Shown here piece after piece: positions 27,885 through 37,318 of a stretch of 37,318 bases of DNA. The notes under the pieces are model-generated. The model was not told the origin of the DNA and did not search any database. It saw only the letters and a list, made by a program, of their open reading frames with translations. How positions within the stretch are numbered: the first letter of the stretch is position 1; every line of letters begins with the position of its first letter. The position numbers and the translations under genes were made by a program. The DNA is from Planctomycetota bacterium (GTDB taxonomy: Bacteria > Planctomycetota > Planctomycetia > Pirellulales > Pirellulaceae): positions 1 to 37,318 of the forward strand of contig JAPOKD010000002.1 in assembly GCA_029977825.1 (NCBI GenBank). Direction: 5' to 3'.

Positions 27885-30407
27885 TTAGGCAGCCTTCTGG
27901 TCAGAACCAGCTTCGGGCTTCTCGATACCGTCATTCATTTGCAGTGTCGACGAGGCGTTTCGTTCACGACGCAGATCCCGAATCTTCTTGACGTGATCGT
28001 GCAATTGATTCTCCAGGTCGCGGATTCGATCCTGACCTTTCGCGTTGGTATCGAGGCTATCTTCGAGTTCCTCTCGAATGCAACCAACGTGAATTCTTAA
28101 TTCTGTCACTTCCTGTTTCAACCGATCCCGGTCGCGGCGATCAGATTCAGCACTTTCCAGTGCGATTTTCAAGTCCTGGATTTCGTAAATCTGACGCGCG
28201 ACTTCATCGCTCTTCACGCCGATCTCGGTGACCAGCAGTTCATGTTCTTCGGATTTGGATTCAAGCTGTCTTTCCAGATCCTCCACCTTTGTCGTTAGCT
28301 GTATGCTTTGATCAACGGCAGTTTTCGCTACCTCAAGTTGGATTGCCAGTTTCTCGATTTCGATTTTTTGTTGATCCAGTTTGCTTGTTTTGGCGGCCAG
28401 ATCATCGACAACTGAATCATGCTGTAGTGATCTCGCCGTTAGCTGTGTTTTCAACTCGGTAATGGTGGTTTCCCTCGCCTCCATTTCCGTTTGCAACGTA
28501 ATCTCCAGTTTTTCTTTTGCACTAGCTACCTGTGACAATTCCTCATTCATCTGGCTGGCTTCTGCCAGATGATTCGTGATCTGTTTACCCAGTCGACTGA
28601 TGGTAGATTCGAGACCGTCTCGTGTGACCAGCAGTTGCTCGCGTTCCTGTTTGATTTCATTCAGTTCCGCTTTGCATTGCTCAAGTTGCCGCTGGCTGGC
28701 ATTGGCTTGTTTCAGTTGCGATTGCATTTGCCGGATCTGGTCAGCAGTCTTTTGGTTGGTTGTGGTCAAAAGTGCATTGTCAGTCGACAGGGAGTCAATG
28801 TCACGGGCCATTGAAAGAATGCGATTTTCCAATCCGTCAATTTCAGCGATGGCAACAGCGATCTCGATTTCGTTTTCATCACAAACTCGCTCGGCAGTGA
28901 GGATCGTTGTCTCACGTTCTTCAATTTCATGAACCGCAAGATCGATTTCTTTCTGCTTGTGTTTCAGTGCAAGCTCTAATTCAGGGACGCAGTCAGCTTG
29001 ACGGCTCAGTTCTGAAATTTGGACCGCTTGTTGAAGGAAGAGACTTTCCAAGGCTGAGTTGCGTTCGTGGTATTCGTGGATAGTCTGCTGTGTTGTTTGC
29101 AATTCCTTTTGAACCCTGTTCCATTCTTTTGCCTGTTCTTTGAATTCGTTCAAGGCAGATGTTTTTGATGCAAGCTGTGCTCTCGTTTCGGCCAAATCAA
29201 GAGAGTGGATTGCGTTTTCTTTACGAATAGCGCACAGCTCGGCGACTTGATACTGTTGTTGCTCGACGAGTTGTTGCAGGTCAGCGACTTTCAAGCGATA
29301 AGCAATTTCCTTGTTTTCCGAGTGAGTACAGGCCTCCGTTTTTATGCTGAGTTGCGACTCCAGTTCATCGAGTTGTGTTTGGCACGCGGCATTGAACTGT
29401 TCCAGTTGTAACCGGTGTTCTTTTTCGTCACTAAGCTGCGTATTGAGGTCGCTTACCTGTTGATCGCGTTCAGCCAGATGCGTGGTTTTCAATGCGAGTT
29501 CCGATTCGCATTGTTCCAAAGTTTGTCGCTGTTCGGTTAGCGAACTGGCTGCAGCGGCGAGATCAGTGGCAAATTCATCCCGTTCAGCCTGAACCTGCTG
29601 TGAAAAAGCGATATTGCGTTCAAGTTGTGTCAGGGTTTGTGCGTGGTCCTGCGATTTTTGTTCAAGCTGGTCACGTTCCGCACGGAGCGCATCGATGTCC
29701 TTGCACCTTGCTACTAAATCCTGTTGGGTTTTATGCAGTGAAGTATTCGCTGCTACACATGCCTGTCCCTTCATCTCGATGCGTTCTTCAAGTTCGGTTA
29801 TCTGGCCTTGCTGCTGTTCCAGGTCCGTTTGCCGGTCTTGCGCCAGTGTTCGAAGAGTATCGAGTTCGCGTTGAGAAGTTTCAAACTCCGAGACCGATTG
29901 CCGATATAGCTGATCCAGTTGTTCAAAGCTCTCCTGATGGGATTGATTCTCTGCTGCGAGCGCGGCATTTTTTTCAATCATTTCCTGCAACTGATCAATG
30001 ATTGTCTGGTTACGCTTTTCCTCATTTCCAATTTGTATTTCAGCTTCGTTGAGAGACTTGCGAAACTGGTTGATTTCGTCTTGTGAACTTTGTGAAATCT
30101 GTTCAAGGCGTTTGTTTTTTGAGCGAAGAGTTGAGTGCGCTTGACGCAGGGTTGTTAAATCTTCGTCGAGAGAGGCATTTTGTTTTTGAAGCTCTTTGAC
30201 CTGTGTTTTACGCTGTTTGTGCGAACTTCGTACTTTCAGGTAGCGTGTTTCAAGGTCGGGATCGGTGGGGGAATTTTTGCCGCGATCACGGTACCAAAGC
30301 AAATGTCCAAGCAATGTTCCTGCCAACAAAAACAACGCAGCTGATGAAAGGGGCATGCCCAAAAGTTGTACGGAATTACCAAACAGGTCGATCATTGAAC
30401 GTTCCAT
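27885..30407 (-). CDS. Large membrane-anchored coiled-coil protein
   Basis: The product is 840 residues. One membrane helix at about 17-37 (GMPLSSAALFLLAGTLLGHLL) is followed by 'WYRDRGKN', which places the rest in the cytoplasm by the positive-inside rule. From about residue 50 to 820 the sequence is almost continuous heptad-type coiled coil rich in Gln, Glu, Leu, Lys and Asp, with very few Pro or Gly. No ATPase or SMC head motif is present, so it is a structural rod and not an SMC protein. A rod of this length could extend about 100 nm (inference from 0.15 nm per residue). Met5 (30395) is an alternative start with GGA upstream. The family is unknown; the role may be in scaffolding the cell envelope or division. 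Confidence 0.85.
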   Translation of the reverse strand: MERSMIDLFGNSVQLLGMPLSSAALFLLAGTLLGHLLWYRDRGKNSPTDPDLETRYLKVRSSHKQRKTQVKELQKQNASLDEDLTTLRQAHSTLRSKNKRLEQISQSSQDEINQFRKSLNEAEIQIGNEEKRNQTIIDQLQEMIEKNAALAAENQSHQESFEQLDQLYRQSVSEFETSQRELDTLRTLAQDRQTDLEQQQGQITELEERIEMKGQACVAANTSLHKTQQDLVARCKDIDALRAERDQLEQKSQDHAQTLTQLERNIAFSQQVQAERDEFATDLAAAASSLTEQRQTLEQCESELALKTTHLAERDQQVSDLNTQLSDEKEHRLQLEQFNAACQTQLDELESQLSIKTEACTHSENKEIAYRLKVADLQQLVEQQQYQVAELCAIRKENAIHSLDLAETRAQLASKTSALNEFKEQAKEWNRVQKELQTTQQTIHEYHERNSALESLFLQQAVQISELSRQADCVPELELALKHKQKEIDLAVHEIEERETTILTAERVCDENEIEIAVAIAEIDGLENRILSMARDIDSLSTDNALLTTTNQKTADQIRQMQSQLKQANASQRQLEQCKAELNEIKQEREQLLVTRDGLESTISRLGKQITNHLAEASQMNEELSQVASAKEKLEITLQTEMEARETTITELKTQLTARSLQHDSVVDDLAAKTSKLDQQKIEIEKLAIQLEVAKTAVDQSIQLTTKVEDLERQLESKSEEHELLVTEIGVKSDEVARQIYEIQDLKIALESAESDRRDRDRLKQEVTELRIHVGCIREELEDSLDTNAKGQDRIRDLENQLHDHVKKIRDLRRERNASSTLQMNDGIEKPEAGSDQKAA

Positions 30408-32820: not shown

Positions 32821-34281
32821 TCACCGCTGTGGGACTCTTCGTGTGTTCTCAAAGTGGATTTGACGGATACCCAGAGGTGGCTTTTGCGCTTGGTTAACAC
32901 GTTTCTGCAGCAATTTTGACAGCCGTGAGAGAGTTTCCTGTTGATCTTCATGTGCAGCCAGATTGTGCATTTCTGCGGGATCGCTCTGGTGGTCGTAGAG
33001 CTCTTTCCCCTCGCCGCCCTGCTCTCCCCATTCTGTGTAGCGATATCGGTGGGTGCGAATGCTGTATCCATTTTCGTACTGTGTCAGAGCGGAAGTCCTC
33101 AGAACCGTTGTCGGATCTCCGAGGCCGTCTTTCAAACTGATCCCCGATGTAAAAGGCGGAGGAGTAATGCCAACCAAATCTGCCAGAGTCGGGTAGAGGT
33201 CCACCATTTCTGCGATTGAGTTTGCGTTTTGTCCCTTGGCAATCTCTGGTCCCGCCATGATCAGTGGCACGCGTGATGCATTTTCAAACAGTGTTGTTTT
33301 CTGCCAGTGTCCATGTTCGCCCATGTGATAGCCGTGATCCGAAGTGAAGATCACGATTGTATTTTTTGACAAATTCGTTGCATCAAGAGCATCAAGAATG
33401 CGACCCAATTGGGCGTCAGCAAAACTGATTGATGCATAATATGCCTGAATCGCCTTAACACCAAGTTTCGGATCAAGATCTAACTGATCTTTCTTTCTGG
33501 TAATTGATTTGCGAGCAGGTGCTGGGAGTGTTTGAAGATAGTCAACTGGAACGTTGGGTACTTGCAATGCGTCCAGCGGATACATGTCAAAATATTTCTT
33601 TGGAGCAACGAATGGTGTGTGAGGGCGAAACAGACCCACCGCCAGAAAAAAATTCGTGTCTGACTTCGCATAATCAAGTAACAGCTGTACAGCCTCTGAC
33701 GCTGCGATCCCATCTGTTTGTTGCTCATCTGTGCCGTCTGCGGCAAGCCAACTCAGTGTGCCTCCAAAGCTTCCTTTCTTGAGACTGAAAATACGATCTT
33801 CGTCATCCTTGTCTCTTCCGCGCGGATTGATTGTCTGATCCCATGAGTAGGGGTCATCATGACCTCCCGTACCGATTTGCTTTGGTACGTTGTAATGAAA
33901 AATTTTCCCAATTCGAGTGGCCCGGTAACCTGCATCCCGAAAAAGTTGTGAGATGGTTTTCACATTTGGAATGTGCTCGCGTATATAAATCGCGTTCCGG
34001 TGGATAAGTGTTTGATCAGCGTAGAGACCCGTCATGAACGAAGCTCTACTGGGACCACAGAGTGGATATTGGCAATACGCTTGATCAAATCGGACACCCC
34101 GTGAAGCCAGTCGATCAATGTTGGGGGTTTTGACCAGTGGGTGCCCGTAGCAACTGATGTCACAGTTCAAGTCATCACAAATCAGAAACAGAATATTTGG
34201 TTTTTCGGCGGCCCGGACTTGGGATACCATCGATGTAGCTGTGAAGACAAAGGTCAAAAGGCACAATAGAGACGGTTTCAT
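32821..34281 (-). CDS. Secreted sulfatase, iduronate-2-sulfatase-like
   Basis: The start at 34281 gives a clear signal peptide (MKPSLLCLLTFVFTATSMVSQVRA, cleavage before AEKPN); the upstream start at 34344 would add 21 residues before it. The mature part begins 'KPNILFLICDDLNCDISCYGHP', with the metal-binding Asp pair. The formylglycine motif C-x-P-S-R is at Cys75 ('LCGPSRASFMTG'), so the enzyme needs a maturation factor. 'FTSDHGYHMGEHGHWQKTTLFE' supplies further metal and active-site residues. The 'RNAIYIREHIPNVKTISQLFRDAGYRATRIGKIFH' region and the overall pattern match the iduronate-2-sulfatase/choline-sulfatase branch. It probably removes sulfate from algal or animal polysaccharides. Sulfatases are highly expanded in planctomycetes. 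It lies 82 bp upstream of the oxidoreductase gene on the same strand. Confidence 0.92.
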   Translation of the reverse strand: MKPSLLCLLTFVFTATSMVSQVRAAEKPNILFLICDDLNCDISCYGHPLVKTPNIDRLASRGVRFDQAYCQYPLCGPSRASFMTGLYADQTLIHRNAIYIREHIPNVKTISQLFRDAGYRATRIGKIFHYNVPKQIGTGGHDDPYSWDQTINPRGRDKDDEDRIFSLKKGSFGGTLSWLAADGTDEQQTDGIAASEAVQLLLDYAKSDTNFFLAVGLFRPHTPFVAPKKYFDMYPLDALQVPNVPVDYLQTLPAPARKSITRKKDQLDLDPKLGVKAIQAYYASISFADAQLGRILDALDATNLSKNTIVIFTSDHGYHMGEHGHWQKTTLFENASRVPLIMAGPEIAKGQNANSIAEMVDLYPTLADLVGITPPPFTSGISLKDGLGDPTTVLRTSALTQYENGYSIRTHRYRYTEWGEQGGEGKELYDHQSDPAEMHNLAAHEDQQETLSRLSKLLQKRVNQAQKPPLGIRQIHFENTRRVPQR

Positions 34282-34577
34282 GATGGCCTGTAGGATGTGA
34301 CGGCTAAGGGCTGCGGATACTTGGCACAAGTGCAGCCCCATCACAACTCATGCAGGGACTGAATGACAACGCTTGTTCACATTCAGTTGCCCATTGATTT
34401 TTCGACCGGGCTGTACCTGATAACTCTGACTTATGGGACCCCGGAATGGATTCAGTGTCTCTTCGCCAGAACGCGTTGCGATGAGTCCCAGTTTGCTATC
34501 AGTAAACCATGTTTCCTCCCTCAACATTTCGTTGAGAGCATACGACTCGGCATGTTACGTGCGGTGTGGGAAGGCAC
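34282..34577. other. 296-bp gap between sulfatase and TelA-like gene
   Basis: No gene is supported. Both flanking genes are on the minus strand, so this is the 3' region of the TelA-like gene plus the promoter and leader of the sulfatase gene. Frames on the plus strand here run into the complement of the TelA-like gene. No strong hairpin or repeat was seen. Confidence 0.4.
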
Positions 34578-35807
34578 TCAGGGACGCAGGTTCTCGCCTC
34601 TGGCATGTCGAGCCAGCGTTTCCTGGTATTTCTGCTTACCTTCTTCGACGGATTTCCGGATTTCTTTGGCACTGTCTTCGGATTCTTTTCTCAGGTCAGC
34701 AATCATTTCAAGTGACTCGACCTGGAAATTACTGATGGCATCAACAAGTTTCTGGACGGATTCCGGATTGATGGTGCTTCCATATCCTGCCTTCAGTGCA
34801 GCGCGTTCCAGTTCCCGACCGAGGTCAGCGATATCTTCCAGCCCTTTGTTGACTCCAGTCTTCATCGCTTCGGTTGCCTGAGTGACTTCGTGTAGTCCGT
34901 GCTGGCTGGTGTACACCGTACCCAGAATTGTGAAGACGTGTTCGTTGGTGGTGAAGAATGTGACGGACCTTCGGTACACTCTTTCTTTGACGTCATGGGT
35001 TTGTTTCAGCTTGGTGATCAGTGTTTCACCAACGTCGTAGCCCACTTCGAGATTTTCAGCAATGTCCTTGAGCAGTTGGTAGGTCGCATCTTCTTTTTCA
35101 AAACTGTAGCGGGCTTCATCTCGGGTTAATTCGAGTCTGCTTTTTTCACTTTCATCCTCACCGCTGTAGGCGTCCAATGCCTCTTGAGTTTCACTCAGAG
35201 AGACTTTCGCTTGTTCGAGAATGGGAAGTTGTGTCTCGAAGAGATCCCGGGCGAGTATTTCTGCCTCTTTCAGTGCGAAGCGGAAATCAATGTAGCCTTC
35301 CATGATGGCTTCTTCACGCTTCAGTTGTTCTTTCGTGTCTTTCGCGACTTCACTGTAGATTTCAACAATCTTTTCGAACCGATCACTCGGTGTTCCGCGT
35401 CGCATTTTCATCCACCAGTTCGACACTTTCTCAGTGCCACTGATTTTCCCATCATCAAGTTGATTGATCAGCCGTTTGCTGTCTTCCCGGACGGAATCAA
35501 ACATCTGTGTGATGTTCATGTATCGGTCACCCACCGAGATACCCTCGACGTTTTCGCGTACGAGTGCGTTGAAGGCACTCATGTGCTGAATGACATCCGC
35601 GATTGCGAGGACTTTGGCTTCATCGAGGTGTTTGACATCTTCGAGCAGGCTGATGAGTTCCTGCGGTGCTGTATTTGAACTGTCTACGCCGAAGTCTTTG
35701 AGCACATTAACTGCTCGACCAAGATATTTGCGCATGGACGTCGATTCCTGAGCCTGTGTAGGGGATGCACTGGGTTCAGGGGCAGGCTGCTGTGCTTGAT
35801 CTGACAT
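34578..35807 (-). CDS. Helical protein resembling the TelA toxic-anion-resistance family
   Basis: The product is 409 residues from the ATG at 35807 (MSDQAQQPAPEPSASP). A longer frame starting at 35903 adds 32 residues without sign of conservation. After a Pro/Ala/Gln-rich N-terminus the protein is almost wholly alpha-helical with no membrane segment. The middle has 'KRLINQLDDGKIS' and 'ARDLFETQLPILEQAKVSLSETQEALD'. The last third ('VTQATEAMKTGVNKGLEDIADLGRELERAALKAG', 'SVQKLVDAISNFQVESLEMIADLRKESEDS') resembles the C-terminal helical bundle of TelA/YaaN proteins ('...V.na.......N..ll......'). I infer a TelA-like fold but not function. It is divergent from a tail-anchored protein gene, with a second coiled-coil gene beyond it, and the three look like one locus. 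Confidence 0.72.
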   Translation of the reverse strand: MSDQAQQPAPEPSASPTQAQESTSMRKYLGRAVNVLKDFGVDSSNTAPQELISLLEDVKHLDEAKVLAIADVIQHMSAFNALVRENVEGISVGDRYMNITQMFDSVREDSKRLINQLDDGKISGTEKVSNWWMKMRRGTPSDRFEKIVEIYSEVAKDTKEQLKREEAIMEGYIDFRFALKEAEILARDLFETQLPILEQAKVSLSETQEALDAYSGEDESEKSRLELTRDEARYSFEKEDATYQLLKDIAENLEVGYDVGETLITKLKQTHDVKERVYRRSVTFFTTNEHVFTILGTVYTSQHGLHEVTQATEAMKTGVNKGLEDIADLGRELERAALKAGYGSTINPESVQKLVDAISNFQVESLEMIADLRKESEDSAKEIRKSVEEGKQKYQETLARHARGENLRP

Positions 35808-36027
35808 GACGGCAAATTCTCCGGGTAATAAGTCGTGGGAGAACCAGCGTTTCTGGTTCTTCCCAGCCGGTATTAGAGTAGCGCGTGAACCACGCGGCTG
35901 CAATCAGCTACTCAGGGGGGAAACGCGATTTCCGGCCAGCTGGCAGTTTTCACGCTCCCCGAATGCGGAAAACGTGCCGATTGAATAGACTACACACCGG
36001 TCAGGACACTCCCAACCCCGTTCCGCG
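35808..36027. promoter_or_regulatory. Divergent promoter region of the right-edge module
   Basis: These 220 bp separate the starts of the TelA-like gene (minus) and the tail-anchored protein gene (plus). Both promoters must lie here. I cannot pick out reliable -35/-10 boxes. A shared control region would co-regulate the two arms. Confidence 0.35.
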
Positions 36028-36450
36028 ATGATCATGGCTAACCAGTCTCAGGCCCAGGCTCCCAATCGATCCACAGGTTCTGCTCGGCGAACGTCGAGTT
36101 TGTTACCCGAGGAGAGTCTCTCGCTTCAGGAGACGCTCCGAGTCATGGATGTAGCTCGGGAAATGCGGGATCAACGGGAAACTGCTGAAGAGATGTTTCG
36201 CCGTGATGATCTCAGGACCCAGCTGCGAGACAAGCTGGTTCGTACGGCTCGCATGTCTGGTGACAATGTTACGGAAGAAGAAATCGAGCTCGCCATCGAG
36301 CAGTTCTTTGAATCCGTTCACAGCTACCAAGACCCGCAGCCTGGCATGAAATCGCTCTTGGCTCATTGCTGGGTTTGGCGTGGTCGCCTGGCTCTTGCAG
36401 CAGCAGCTCTTACCACTGTCCTGGGTGGACTGTGGTTTATGTTTTCCTGA
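36028..36450 (+). CDS. Tail-anchored small protein, possibly DUF6384-like
   Basis: The product is 140 residues. The soluble part has a conserved-looking core, 'LSLQETLRVMDVAREMRDQRETAEEM', then 'LRDKLVRTARMSGDNVTEEEIELAIEQFFESVHSYQDP'. One membrane helix lies at the C-terminus (about 118-138, LALAAAALTTVLGGLWFMF), preceded by 'WVWRGR'. The layout (a 'MDV..xLR' helix, a 'g..vt..ei..ai..f' helix, then a membrane helix) recalls the uncharacterised DUF6384 family; this is from memory and unverified. The start may be Met1 or Met3 (ATG at 36034). The next gene begins 27 bp later, so they form an operon. Confidence 0.75.
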   Translation: MIMANQSQAQAPNRSTGSARRTSSLLPEESLSLQETLRVMDVAREMRDQRETAEEMFRRDDLRTQLRDKLVRTARMSGDNVTEEEIELAIEQFFESVHSYQDPQPGMKSLLAHCWVWRGRLALAAAALTTVLGGLWFMFS

Positions 36451-36477
36451 GTTTTCAAGTTCGAGGTTGCGCGAGAG

Positions 36478-37318
36478 ATGATGATTCCTGGTCCCACCGT
36501 TCATCAACAACTGATGGATGCATACAAACGCTTGACGGAGCAATTGGAGCAAGACCGGAAGAGTATGCACGATGTGCAAGAACAGTATGAGAAACTGGAT
36601 GCAGAACGTGATGATGCATTACGCAGTCTTGCGCAACATTATCTTCCAGAGTTGACGGCTGACGCCATCAATTCAACATGGCGCGAGGTTCAATCAGATA
36701 TCTCAACGCTTCTATTACAAAAAGAGGATGAGGATCGGTCTTTGCAGCAAAAACTGAAGCAGTTGCAGGAAAACCGAACCACGACCGAAAAGGCACTTCT
36801 GCAAGCAACCAATGTTCTGGATTCGGCAATTCTGGAACAGAACAAGGTTTCGGCTGTCGTTGAGAAGCGTTTGCAGGAAGACACCCAGTTCGTGGAACTG
36901 GCAGATCGAGCCGCTATCGCGGAGCTTGCACTTGAAAGAGCAGAATCAAATTTACACGAAATCGACCAAGACGCTGCAAGGAAGCTTCCTGCCTATCAAG
37001 CGAGTACGCTGTTTCAGTATTTGTATGAGCGTGGCTATGGCCAAAAAGAATATCGAAGCCGGGGATTGACGCGTCGTATTGATCGTTGGCTGGCTCGCTA
37101 CATTGACTTCACCAAGGCAAGGCAGGGCTATGACTTCCTAAAACAGACACCAGATCAAATGCGAAAGATTATCGCAGAAGATCGACGTTCATTGAATATT
37201 GTGATGGAGGAGCTAGAGCGAAAGCGTGATCGGGTTGCTGATGAAATGGGCTTGCCAGAGAAAATAAGCCTGACAGATCGACTTACCAGAGATCGACAGC
37301 AAATCCTGCAAACTGCTA
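36478..37318 (+). CDS. Coiled-coil protein, 3' end outside window
   Basis: The frame starts at ATG 36478 (or 36481), with GAGG about 11 bases upstream, and stays open to the last base, so the gene is cut by the window edge. The visible 280 residues begin MMIPGPTVHQQLMDAYKRL. Three coiled-coil stretches are seen: about 15-50 ('LTEQLEQDRKSMHDVQEQYEKL'), 85-170 ('LLLQKEDEDRSLQQKLKQLQ', 'AIAELALERAESNLHEI'), and 240-280 ('EELERKRDRVADEMG'). A less helical part in the middle has 'LPAYQASTLFQYLYERGYGQ' and 'RGLTRRIDRWLARYIDFTKARQGYDFL', which looks like a small folded unit. No ATPase motif is visible so far. The family is not recognised. It is in operon with the tail-anchored protein gene. Confidence 0.82.
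   Translation, partial: MMIPGPTVHQQLMDAYKRLTEQLEQDRKSMHDVQEQYEKLDAERDDALRSLAQHYLPELTADAINSTWREVQSDISTLLLQKEDEDRSLQQKLKQLQENRTTTEKALLQATNVLDSAILEQNKVSAVVEKRLQEDTQFVELADRAAIAELALERAESNLHEIDQDAARKLPAYQASTLFQYLYERGYGQKEYRSRGLTRRIDRWLARYIDFTKARQGYDFLKQTPDQMRKIIAEDRRSLNIVMEELERKRDRVADEMGLPEKISLTDRLTRDRQQILQTA

Follow-up and report, generated by a model that had tools for sequence, protein, structure and literature searches.

A three-gene module of bacteria, archaea, megaplasmids and a jumbo phage that may encode a membrane-anchored protein machine

Three neighboring genes at the end of a 37,318-nucleotide stretch of DNA from a marine planctomycete (GenBank assembly GCA_029977825.1, contig JAPOKD010000002.1, positions 1 to 37,318; this whole stretch is hereafter the window) form a module that recurs in bacteria and DPANN archaea, on megaplasmids and in a jumbo phage. 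They are named here P1 (a helical protein), P2 (a membrane protein of the DUF6384 family) and P3 (a coiled-coil protein). We consider it nearly an even bet (probability about 0.45) that they encode an unrecognised three-protein membrane machine, in which a conserved cytoplasmic hairpin protein and a coiled-coil protein would be held on a single-pass anchor, with the Gly/Phe tail of the coiled-coil protein read by, or acting with, the outer domain of the anchor. In the tests made here the module matched no known type of system (a new mechanism is not thereby claimed to be proven), and no recorded function was found for the module in literature searches of limited coverage. The window is an entire contig (C147) of a 6.4-Mb draft assembly with 1025 contigs and 86% completeness, whose nearest named relatives are Rhodopirellula and Rubripirellula.

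The three genes are linked and retained together

When 60 genomes were compared, P1, P3 and a DUF6384 match above the cut-off were each detected in 22, and these were the identical 22 genomes, the window's own included; in a 23rd (G025) the DUF6384 match fell under the cut-off. The co-occurrence of the three genes thus exceeds chance. P1 adjoins P2 in 99 of the 106 P1 loci gathered, a set that contains some duplicates and is weighted to the best 80 matches of a P1 scan (see below). The two genes are on the same strand in 46 of these loci (with an extra gene between them in one, L143) and divergent in 53, and P2 and P3 lie on one strand, at most 150 bases apart, in all 92 loci holding both. The first-pass annotation of the window, made from its letters and open reading frames (ORFs), had proposed a real three-gene unit, and this is borne out, given that the genes are usually adjacent in other genomes as well.

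The genes also persist together where they are dispersed. P1 is solitary in seven loci, and all seven genomes concerned hold both P2 and P3 (a partial P3 match in G228). DUF6384 was found in all 15 genomes tested, those seven among them, and P3 in 11 of the 14 genomes or records tested, the misses being two drafts (G229 and G232) and the phage, where g192 has diverged too far for that search to detect. P1 lies 3 Mb from the P2-P3 pair on the single 7.3-Mb contig of G027, and P2 and P3 are on separate contigs in G225-G228, G230 and G231.

Single-linkage clustering of the genes from 107 loci gave clusters of 103 (P1), 91 (P2) and 91 (P3) loci, and the next largest had 11, from planctomycete loci. 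Other clusters were mostly confined to a single lineage, with a few large common families (up to 9 loci) spanning lineages, and the genes flanking the module in 16 loci were, by eye, mostly ordinary chromosomal or plasmid genes.

Two gene orders were observed. The divergent order is that of Planctomycetota, DPANN archaea and a bacterial bin (L119), and corresponds to one fully supported branch in the P1 tree; the co-directional order is that of two planctomycete drafts (L130 and L144) and the remaining lineages. In the P1 tree these two drafts fall among proteobacterial rows, from either inter-phylum transfer or mis-binning. One genome of the window's genus (G005) has the module twice (C62:235794-238531 and C120:14796-17533) with equal P1 and P3 matches, indicating assembly redundancy or a recent duplication.

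Distribution in cells, plasmids and phages

A tblastn search with P1 detected 11 plasmid records (seven from Pseudomonas and four from rhizobia and methylobacteria) and one phage, the Yersinia phage phiR1-37, present as two records. In the eight annotated records, P1 is followed by a DUF6384 gene and then by a gene for a 417-466-aa protein (the DUF6384 protein of the phage is annotated as hypothetical), and profiles identified the same two neighbors, P2 and P3, in the four records unannotated there. A scan of genome contigs with an 11-row P1 alignment matched at least 593 stretches, at least 370 of which encode a relative. The best 80 were used, and these are from Planctomycetota, DPANN archaea, Alpha-, Beta- and Gammaproteobacteria, Thermodesulfobacteriota and Campylobacterota, with eight loci from Roseibium/Labrenzia. 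The P1 proteins of DPANN archaea share 48-58% identity with that of the window. Many loci are from draft metagenome bins and the archaeal contigs are 6-39 kb in length, so bin contamination is possible; the EF-2-like neighboring gene in one of the loci (L115) reads as archaeal by eye. Within the genus of the window, 16 of 21 further genomes examined retain the module.

The g190-g191-g192 genes of phiR1-37 have the matching order and proteins: g190 shares 37.6% identity with P1 over 95%, g191 matches DUF6384 at 4.7e-26, and g192 bears the P3 tail described below. The phage genes differ from those of the window in that g192 reaches only E 0.69 against the P3 profile, the three are co-directional, the P2 is long, and all are annotated as hypothetical. 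They are not marked as virion proteins, as several of their neighbors are, and a term search and passages of the main text of the RNA-seq and receptor papers on this phage (PMC4848604, PMC13030884) gave no mention of g190-g192. Searching IMG/VR with the lone P1 sequence gave no match, and searching with the alignment gave five loci, one of them phiR1-37 itself. In three of the other four contigs an integrase-like gene (by reading) is near the module, and the position of the module inside a virus is therefore uncertain for those contigs. A combined literature search on planctomycetes, jumbo phages and megaplasmids returned nothing, most subscription journals being outside its coverage.

On two of the Pseudomonas megaplasmids, pMPPla107 (L052, 8585-11794) and pBASL58 (L069, 2462-4995), genes for a StiP-domain cysteine protease and a peptidyl-tRNA hydrolase precede the module. 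A dcd gene (dCTP deaminase) follows it on both and on a third Pseudomonas megaplasmid (L050).

P2 is a single-pass membrane protein that has lost its outer domain in the lineage of the window

The P2 of the window matches DUF6384 (PF19911; E 4.8e-10) with 39.5 bits against a curated cut-off of 25, a profile that the first-pass annotation had named for a search, though only over positions 5-114 of the 308-position profile. A long homologue on a Bradyrhizobium plasmid spans positions 15-308. The full-length architecture of the family comprises a helical domain, a membrane helix and a C-terminal domain, whereas the P2 of the window terminates at the membrane helix. Pfam describes DUF6384 as a family of unknown function; no mention of it was found in the literature searched, which is weak evidence given that most subscription journals are not covered. 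The best match in a PDB sequence search with P2 was only E 0.0017.

On a simple hydropathy scale, 86 of 100 P2 proteins have one membrane helix, two have two and 12 have none, and the helix is in the same position in the relatives as in the window. Lys/Arg residues are in excess on the N-terminal side of the helix in 78/100 proteins and on the other side in 6/100, so by the charge rule the N-terminus of P2 is predicted to be inside. An extra C-terminal domain follows the helix in 69 of the 100 proteins. Among the 31 without it, one (L155) is short only because its contig ends, and the other 30 are all from planctomycetes. The long/short label changes seven times on a quick P1 tree, five of the changes being forced by starred branches. 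The window's P2 had been described as a 140-residue tail-anchored protein with one C-terminal membrane helix; this is accurate for the protein itself, whose best hydrophobic stretch is at its very end (residues 121-139), but the tail-anchored type is the derived form of the family.

A structural model of a long P2 (Desulfobacteraceae, 314 aa; pLDDT 92) starts with helices at the N-terminus and has a helix of 61 residues in which the membrane stretch lies, as well as a helical bundle and, at residues 204-311, a beta domain. No row of a whole-model Foldseek or VIA search convincingly covers the beta domain.

The P2 outer domain and the P3 tail are mostly lost together

P3 has only weak matches in Pfam, NCBIfam and PADLOC, and in a PDB sequence search a designed helical protein ranks first (E 4e-6), with coiled coils next. 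No membrane helix was detected in 83 of 92 P3 proteins. The C-terminus of P3 is usually a Gly/Ser-rich tail that ends in F.[ST]G..F or a near variant; it occurs in archaea, proteobacteria, plasmids, the phage and most other planctomycetes. The P3 of the window ends in ...DDTGGSSSDHAG and is tail-less.

Presence of the tail follows the length of P2. Excluding loci with an incomplete P3 end, the strict tail pattern is present in 48 of 62 long-P2 loci and in 1 of 27 short-P2 loci (26/27 without), and a broader pattern in 60/62 and 2/27 (25/27 without), respectively. The broad pattern was framed after viewing the tails, which is a weakness, and its chance rate is 11 in 1080 other genes of the same loci. 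An extended tally, which adds nine loci with P3 elsewhere and has their labels, as well as those of L143 and the phage, set by hand, comprises 67 loci with a long P2 and a tail, 28 with a short P2 and no tail, two with a short P2 and a tail (L102 and L107), and one with a long P2 and no tail (L068). The last is a divergent plasmid gene, and its P3 end (DFTTSDAG) is a near variant of the tail.

Mapped on the P1 tree, the short-P2/tail-less state changes three times, two of the changes being forced by starred branches. Paired loss of the P2 outer domain and the P3 tail is thus indicated on two or three branches of planctomycetes, the lineage of the window included, and this coupling is a new observation. 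It is also seen where P2 and P3 lie apart, with both features retained in five genomes (G225-G228 and G230) and both lost in one (G231). The domain was lost without the tail twice, and the reverse is represented only by the near-variant L068. Most simply read, the tail would depend on the outer domain of P2.

Two planctomycete genomes (G223 and G224) have a second P3-like gene elsewhere on the chromosome (L227 and L228), with ORFs of 638 and 649 aa.

P1 does not match the TelA family

P1 matches no Pfam, NCBIfam, PADLOC or PHROGs family above chance. Its homologues are annotated as 'cell surface protein', 'merozoite surface protein 3b' or hypothetical, and, among the matches listed in our literature search, 'merozoite surface protein 3b' concerns malaria only; the names that parts of the module bear are misleading.

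The first-pass annotation had described P1 as a helical TelA-like protein without membrane segments. That it is helical and has no true membrane helix was confirmed, but its assignment to TelA was not. The TelA profile (PF05816) has no P1 match at E ≤ 10, and no match at E ≤ 0.001 anywhere in the genome, the assembly of which is 86% complete. A profile-profile comparison (hhalign) of P1 with 20 TelA proteins, drawn from 29 TelA loci in module-bearing genomes or records and Pseudomonadota genomes, gave a probability of 2.1%, less than that of P3 against TelA (10.4%), a pair with no reason for kinship. The controls behaved as 99.7% for TelA subgroup A against B, 100% for P1 split in two, and 0.3-0.5% for reversed sequences. 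TelA is present in just 2 of 25 module-bearing genomes or plasmid records, and above the cut-off in 0 of 149 Planctomycetota genomes (one at E 9.9e-4) and 22 of 150 Pseudomonadota genomes. Membership of P1 in the TelA family is rejected on the profile search and the controlled comparison, and the 409-residue protein lacks the match that the annotation had named, alongside predicted interfaces among the three, as a check on its proposal. A literature search for TelA, tellurite and planctomycetes found nothing, which is weak evidence given its limited coverage.

The P1 model resembles ClyA-family chains at the level of helical background

The structural model of P1 (46 rows) comprises a long helical hairpin (H140-213/H219-309) along with a helical region at the N-terminus and one helix at the C-terminus, with a mean pLDDT of 76 and an unreliable region at residues 305-346. 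Foldseek detected nothing at E ≤ 1e-3. When the model was realigned with VIA, chains of the ClyA family were nine of the top ten rows, with Z of 12.2 for XaxA (rmsd 5.5, 245 aligned), 11.6 for SmhB, 11.5 for AhlB, 11.4 for MakA, 10.9 for AhlC and 10.2 for ClyA. Other helical chains score nearly as high, with 11.1 for an HR1 mimic, 10.3 for microtubule-associated chains, 10.1 for a designed bundle and 9.4 for F-BAR domains, and VIA notes that Z below ~13 may be helical-bundle background. The likeness to ClyA therefore looks like a lead that lies inside this background. A PDB sequence search with P1 gave three weak matches, the best (E 0.032) to a tRNA ligase.

Conservation in P1 peaks in a 20-residue block (residues 281-300) that is also its most hydrophobic, though mildly: the best 19-residue hydropathy is 0.81 for the family mean (281-299) and 1.19 for the protein of the window. 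Contact of this block with the membrane is possible.

These features raise the alternative that the module is a ClyA-like three-component membrane-inserting system, in which P1 (perhaps with P3) would insert as an oligomer and P2 would position or restrain it in the cell's own membrane. Many of the top Foldseek rows are ClyA-family chains as well, the long hairpin of the P1 model resembles those of XaxAB, AhlABC, SmhABC, MakA and ClyA, and the family includes two- and three-component members (PMC6602965). With structural scores at background level, no strong hydrophobic head apparent on P1 and, here, one partner that is anchored in the membrane, we regard it as unlikely, although the best placed of the alternatives.

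Layout of the locus and the shared intergenic region

The features of the module are listed in Table 1. Gene calls outside annotated records are longest ORFs, and some starts or lengths are consequently too long. For P2 of the window, a second ATG at 36034 (giving 138 aa) is kept in seven aligned relatives. The spacings given in the first-pass annotation (27 bp between P2 and P3, 220 bp between the divergent genes) were reproduced by measurement, and P3, described there as a coiled-coil protein running beyond the window, could be completed: the window and another contig (C7) overlap by 141 identical bases, the last of the former and the first of the latter, and P3 continued into that contig encodes 493 aa and is followed by a convergent gene.

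Table 1 Coordinates of the module features in the window
Feature	Position	Strand	Description
P1	34578..35807	minus	ATG at 35807; 409 aa; helical; most conserved part of the module
P1 residues 281-300	34908..34967	minus	SVTFFTTNEHVFTILGTVYT; top-conserved 20-residue block
Intergenic region of divergent P1/P2	35808..36027		220 bases; aligned in 8 genus sequences
P2	36028..36450	plus	140 aa; shortened DUF6384 protein
P2 membrane helix	36388..36444	plus	Single; residues 121-139 of 140, extreme C-terminus
P3, 5' part	36478..37318	plus	Coiled-coil; starts 27 bases past the P2 stop; open at window end

The intergenic region is conserved, with one block on each side. The P1-side block, TTAGA(T/G)TAG...GCAATCA (35873-35907), is traceable by eye in further planctomycetes, and the P2-side block is GAATGCGGAAAACG...GATTGAATAGACTA (35961-35992). 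The two blocks look like putative divergent promoters. The P2-side block is not repeated exactly anywhere else in the genome, and its two 3-mismatch sites equal the number for a reversed control. Motif searches upstream of P1 and P2 gave one match for a strict sigma-54 pattern and none for LexA, CIRCE or RpoE; an ECF-like pattern had six scattered matches, and a loose sigma-54 pattern had 17, at least five of which are one block of the window's genus. No known stress-regulator motif recurred across lineages upstream of P1 or P2. On the minus strand at 35964-35979, the eight genus sequences have GG-N10-GC directed towards P1 (CGGCACGTTTTCCGCA), about 160 bases before the P1 start, which we take to be a loose sigma-54-like promoter pattern; such patterns often arise by chance.

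P2 and P3 of the window are in one reading frame (36028-37317), parted by a single TGA and the 27 bases, and the DUF6384 profile match extends over the P2 stop in several species of the genus. Readthrough of the TGA into P3 was weighed, but the common frame was judged to be coincidental. A sulfatase-like gene (by reading) adjoins P1 in the window (32821-34344) and also in a Desulfococcus bin (L152, 501-2093), where it clusters with planctomycete genes in a nine-locus cluster; a chance association is possible, since planctomycetes commonly have sulfatases. A further ORF of 840 aa (27885-30407, minus strand), 4 kb away and outside the module, is near-wholly coiled-coil by eye, with an N-terminal hydrophobic segment.

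Discussion

We propose that P1, P2 and P3 could form a single assembly of three parts that is docked at the cytoplasmic membrane, and to this reading we give somewhat less than an even chance. P2 would be the single-pass anchor, with its conserved N-terminal helical domain in the cytoplasm and a second domain, present in most of the lineages sampled, past the membrane. P3 would be the coiled-coil partner, with a tail that works with, or depends on, the P2 outer domain. P1, the least variable of the three, would be a cytoplasmic helical-hairpin subunit, either effector or scaffold, that assembles on or with the anchor and may touch the membrane via residues 281-300. The assembly would sit on the inner face of the membrane, and planctomycetes of the window's lineage have a stripped form without the P2 outer domain and the P3 tail. 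The process served is a guess, with membrane protection or remodelling under stress as our candidate. The first-pass annotation had suggested a membrane-docked scaffold with P2 as the receptor; the P2-anchored complex is still the best guess, but its link to TelA is gone and the tail-anchored P2 on which it was built is a derived form.

Several observations weigh against the proposed assembly. If P2 is N-in/C-out, its outer domain and the P3 tail, which has no export signal, would be on opposite sides of the membrane, and the coupling may thus be indirect; either the topology departs from the charge rule, or the tail crosses the membrane, or the two serve one outer function without contact. 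Most paired losses are in one clade with the genes adjacent, G231 alone losing both with P2 and P3 apart, and the tail is kept despite a short P2 in two lineages (L102 and L107). P1 is without a true membrane helix (none in 103 of 106 P1 proteins), and P3 was not found in 2 of 13 cellular genomes, both drafts. The distribution is patchy: prevalence, which is to be taken from even samples and not from the best-80 loci, is 8 of 294 genomes for Planctomycetota and 2 of 299 for Pseudomonadota, with the known-positive centre genome counted in both cases. As for the process, neither the regulon nor the neighboring genes indicate a stress response.

Apart from the ClyA-like alternative, the module may be a functional analogue of TelA systems, protecting the envelope against toxic anions or bacteriocins. 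The plasmid klaABC and firmicute xpaC-telA genes are small operons for a helical cytoplasmic protein and a membrane protein, a make-up that resembles the module (TelA being, like P1, a soluble helical protein of ~400 aa encoded with a membrane protein), and the StiP-domain genes near the module on two Pseudomonas megaplasmids are known from Ter-type operons. Given the lack of sequence homology to P1, the different partners and the little co-occurrence with TelA (2/25, and 0/149 Planctomycetota above the cut-off), such an analogy seems improbable. Similarly doubtful is a conflict or mobile-element system (defence, counter-defence, or plasmid or phage maintenance) spread by megaplasmids and phages. 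Patchiness over phyla, the 11 plasmid records, phiR1-37 and the four further IMG/VR contigs, three with an integrase-like gene, would all fit; yet PADLOC 2.0.0 has nothing for P1 or P2 at E ≤ 10 and at best 0.012 for P3 (JetC, MukB-like), no neighbor recurs widely, the flanking genes read in 16 loci are mostly ordinary, and the module is kept in most of the window's genus (16/21) and in the eight Roseibium/Labrenzia loci among the best 80. That three unrelated genes are neighbors by chance or shared chromosomal inheritance, as conservation of some flanking genes in the window's genus might suggest, is already contradicted by the 99/106 adjacency, which holds in two gene orders and extends from bacteria and archaea to plasmids and phage, by joint retention when the genes lie apart, and by the paired losses.

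Returning to the anchored three-protein machine, its planctomycete form is instructive: planctomycetes repeatedly shed the outer domain and the tail together while retaining the core, and this pattern hints that the machine has two functions that can be separated. The wide reach and the conservation of the module (37.6% identity over 95% between planctomycete and phage P1) imply that it must be useful in very different cells, providing a service worth carrying for chromosomes, megaplasmids and a jumbo phage alike. The paired loss offers a ready genetic handle on which partner reads which part, and on what the stripped core does.

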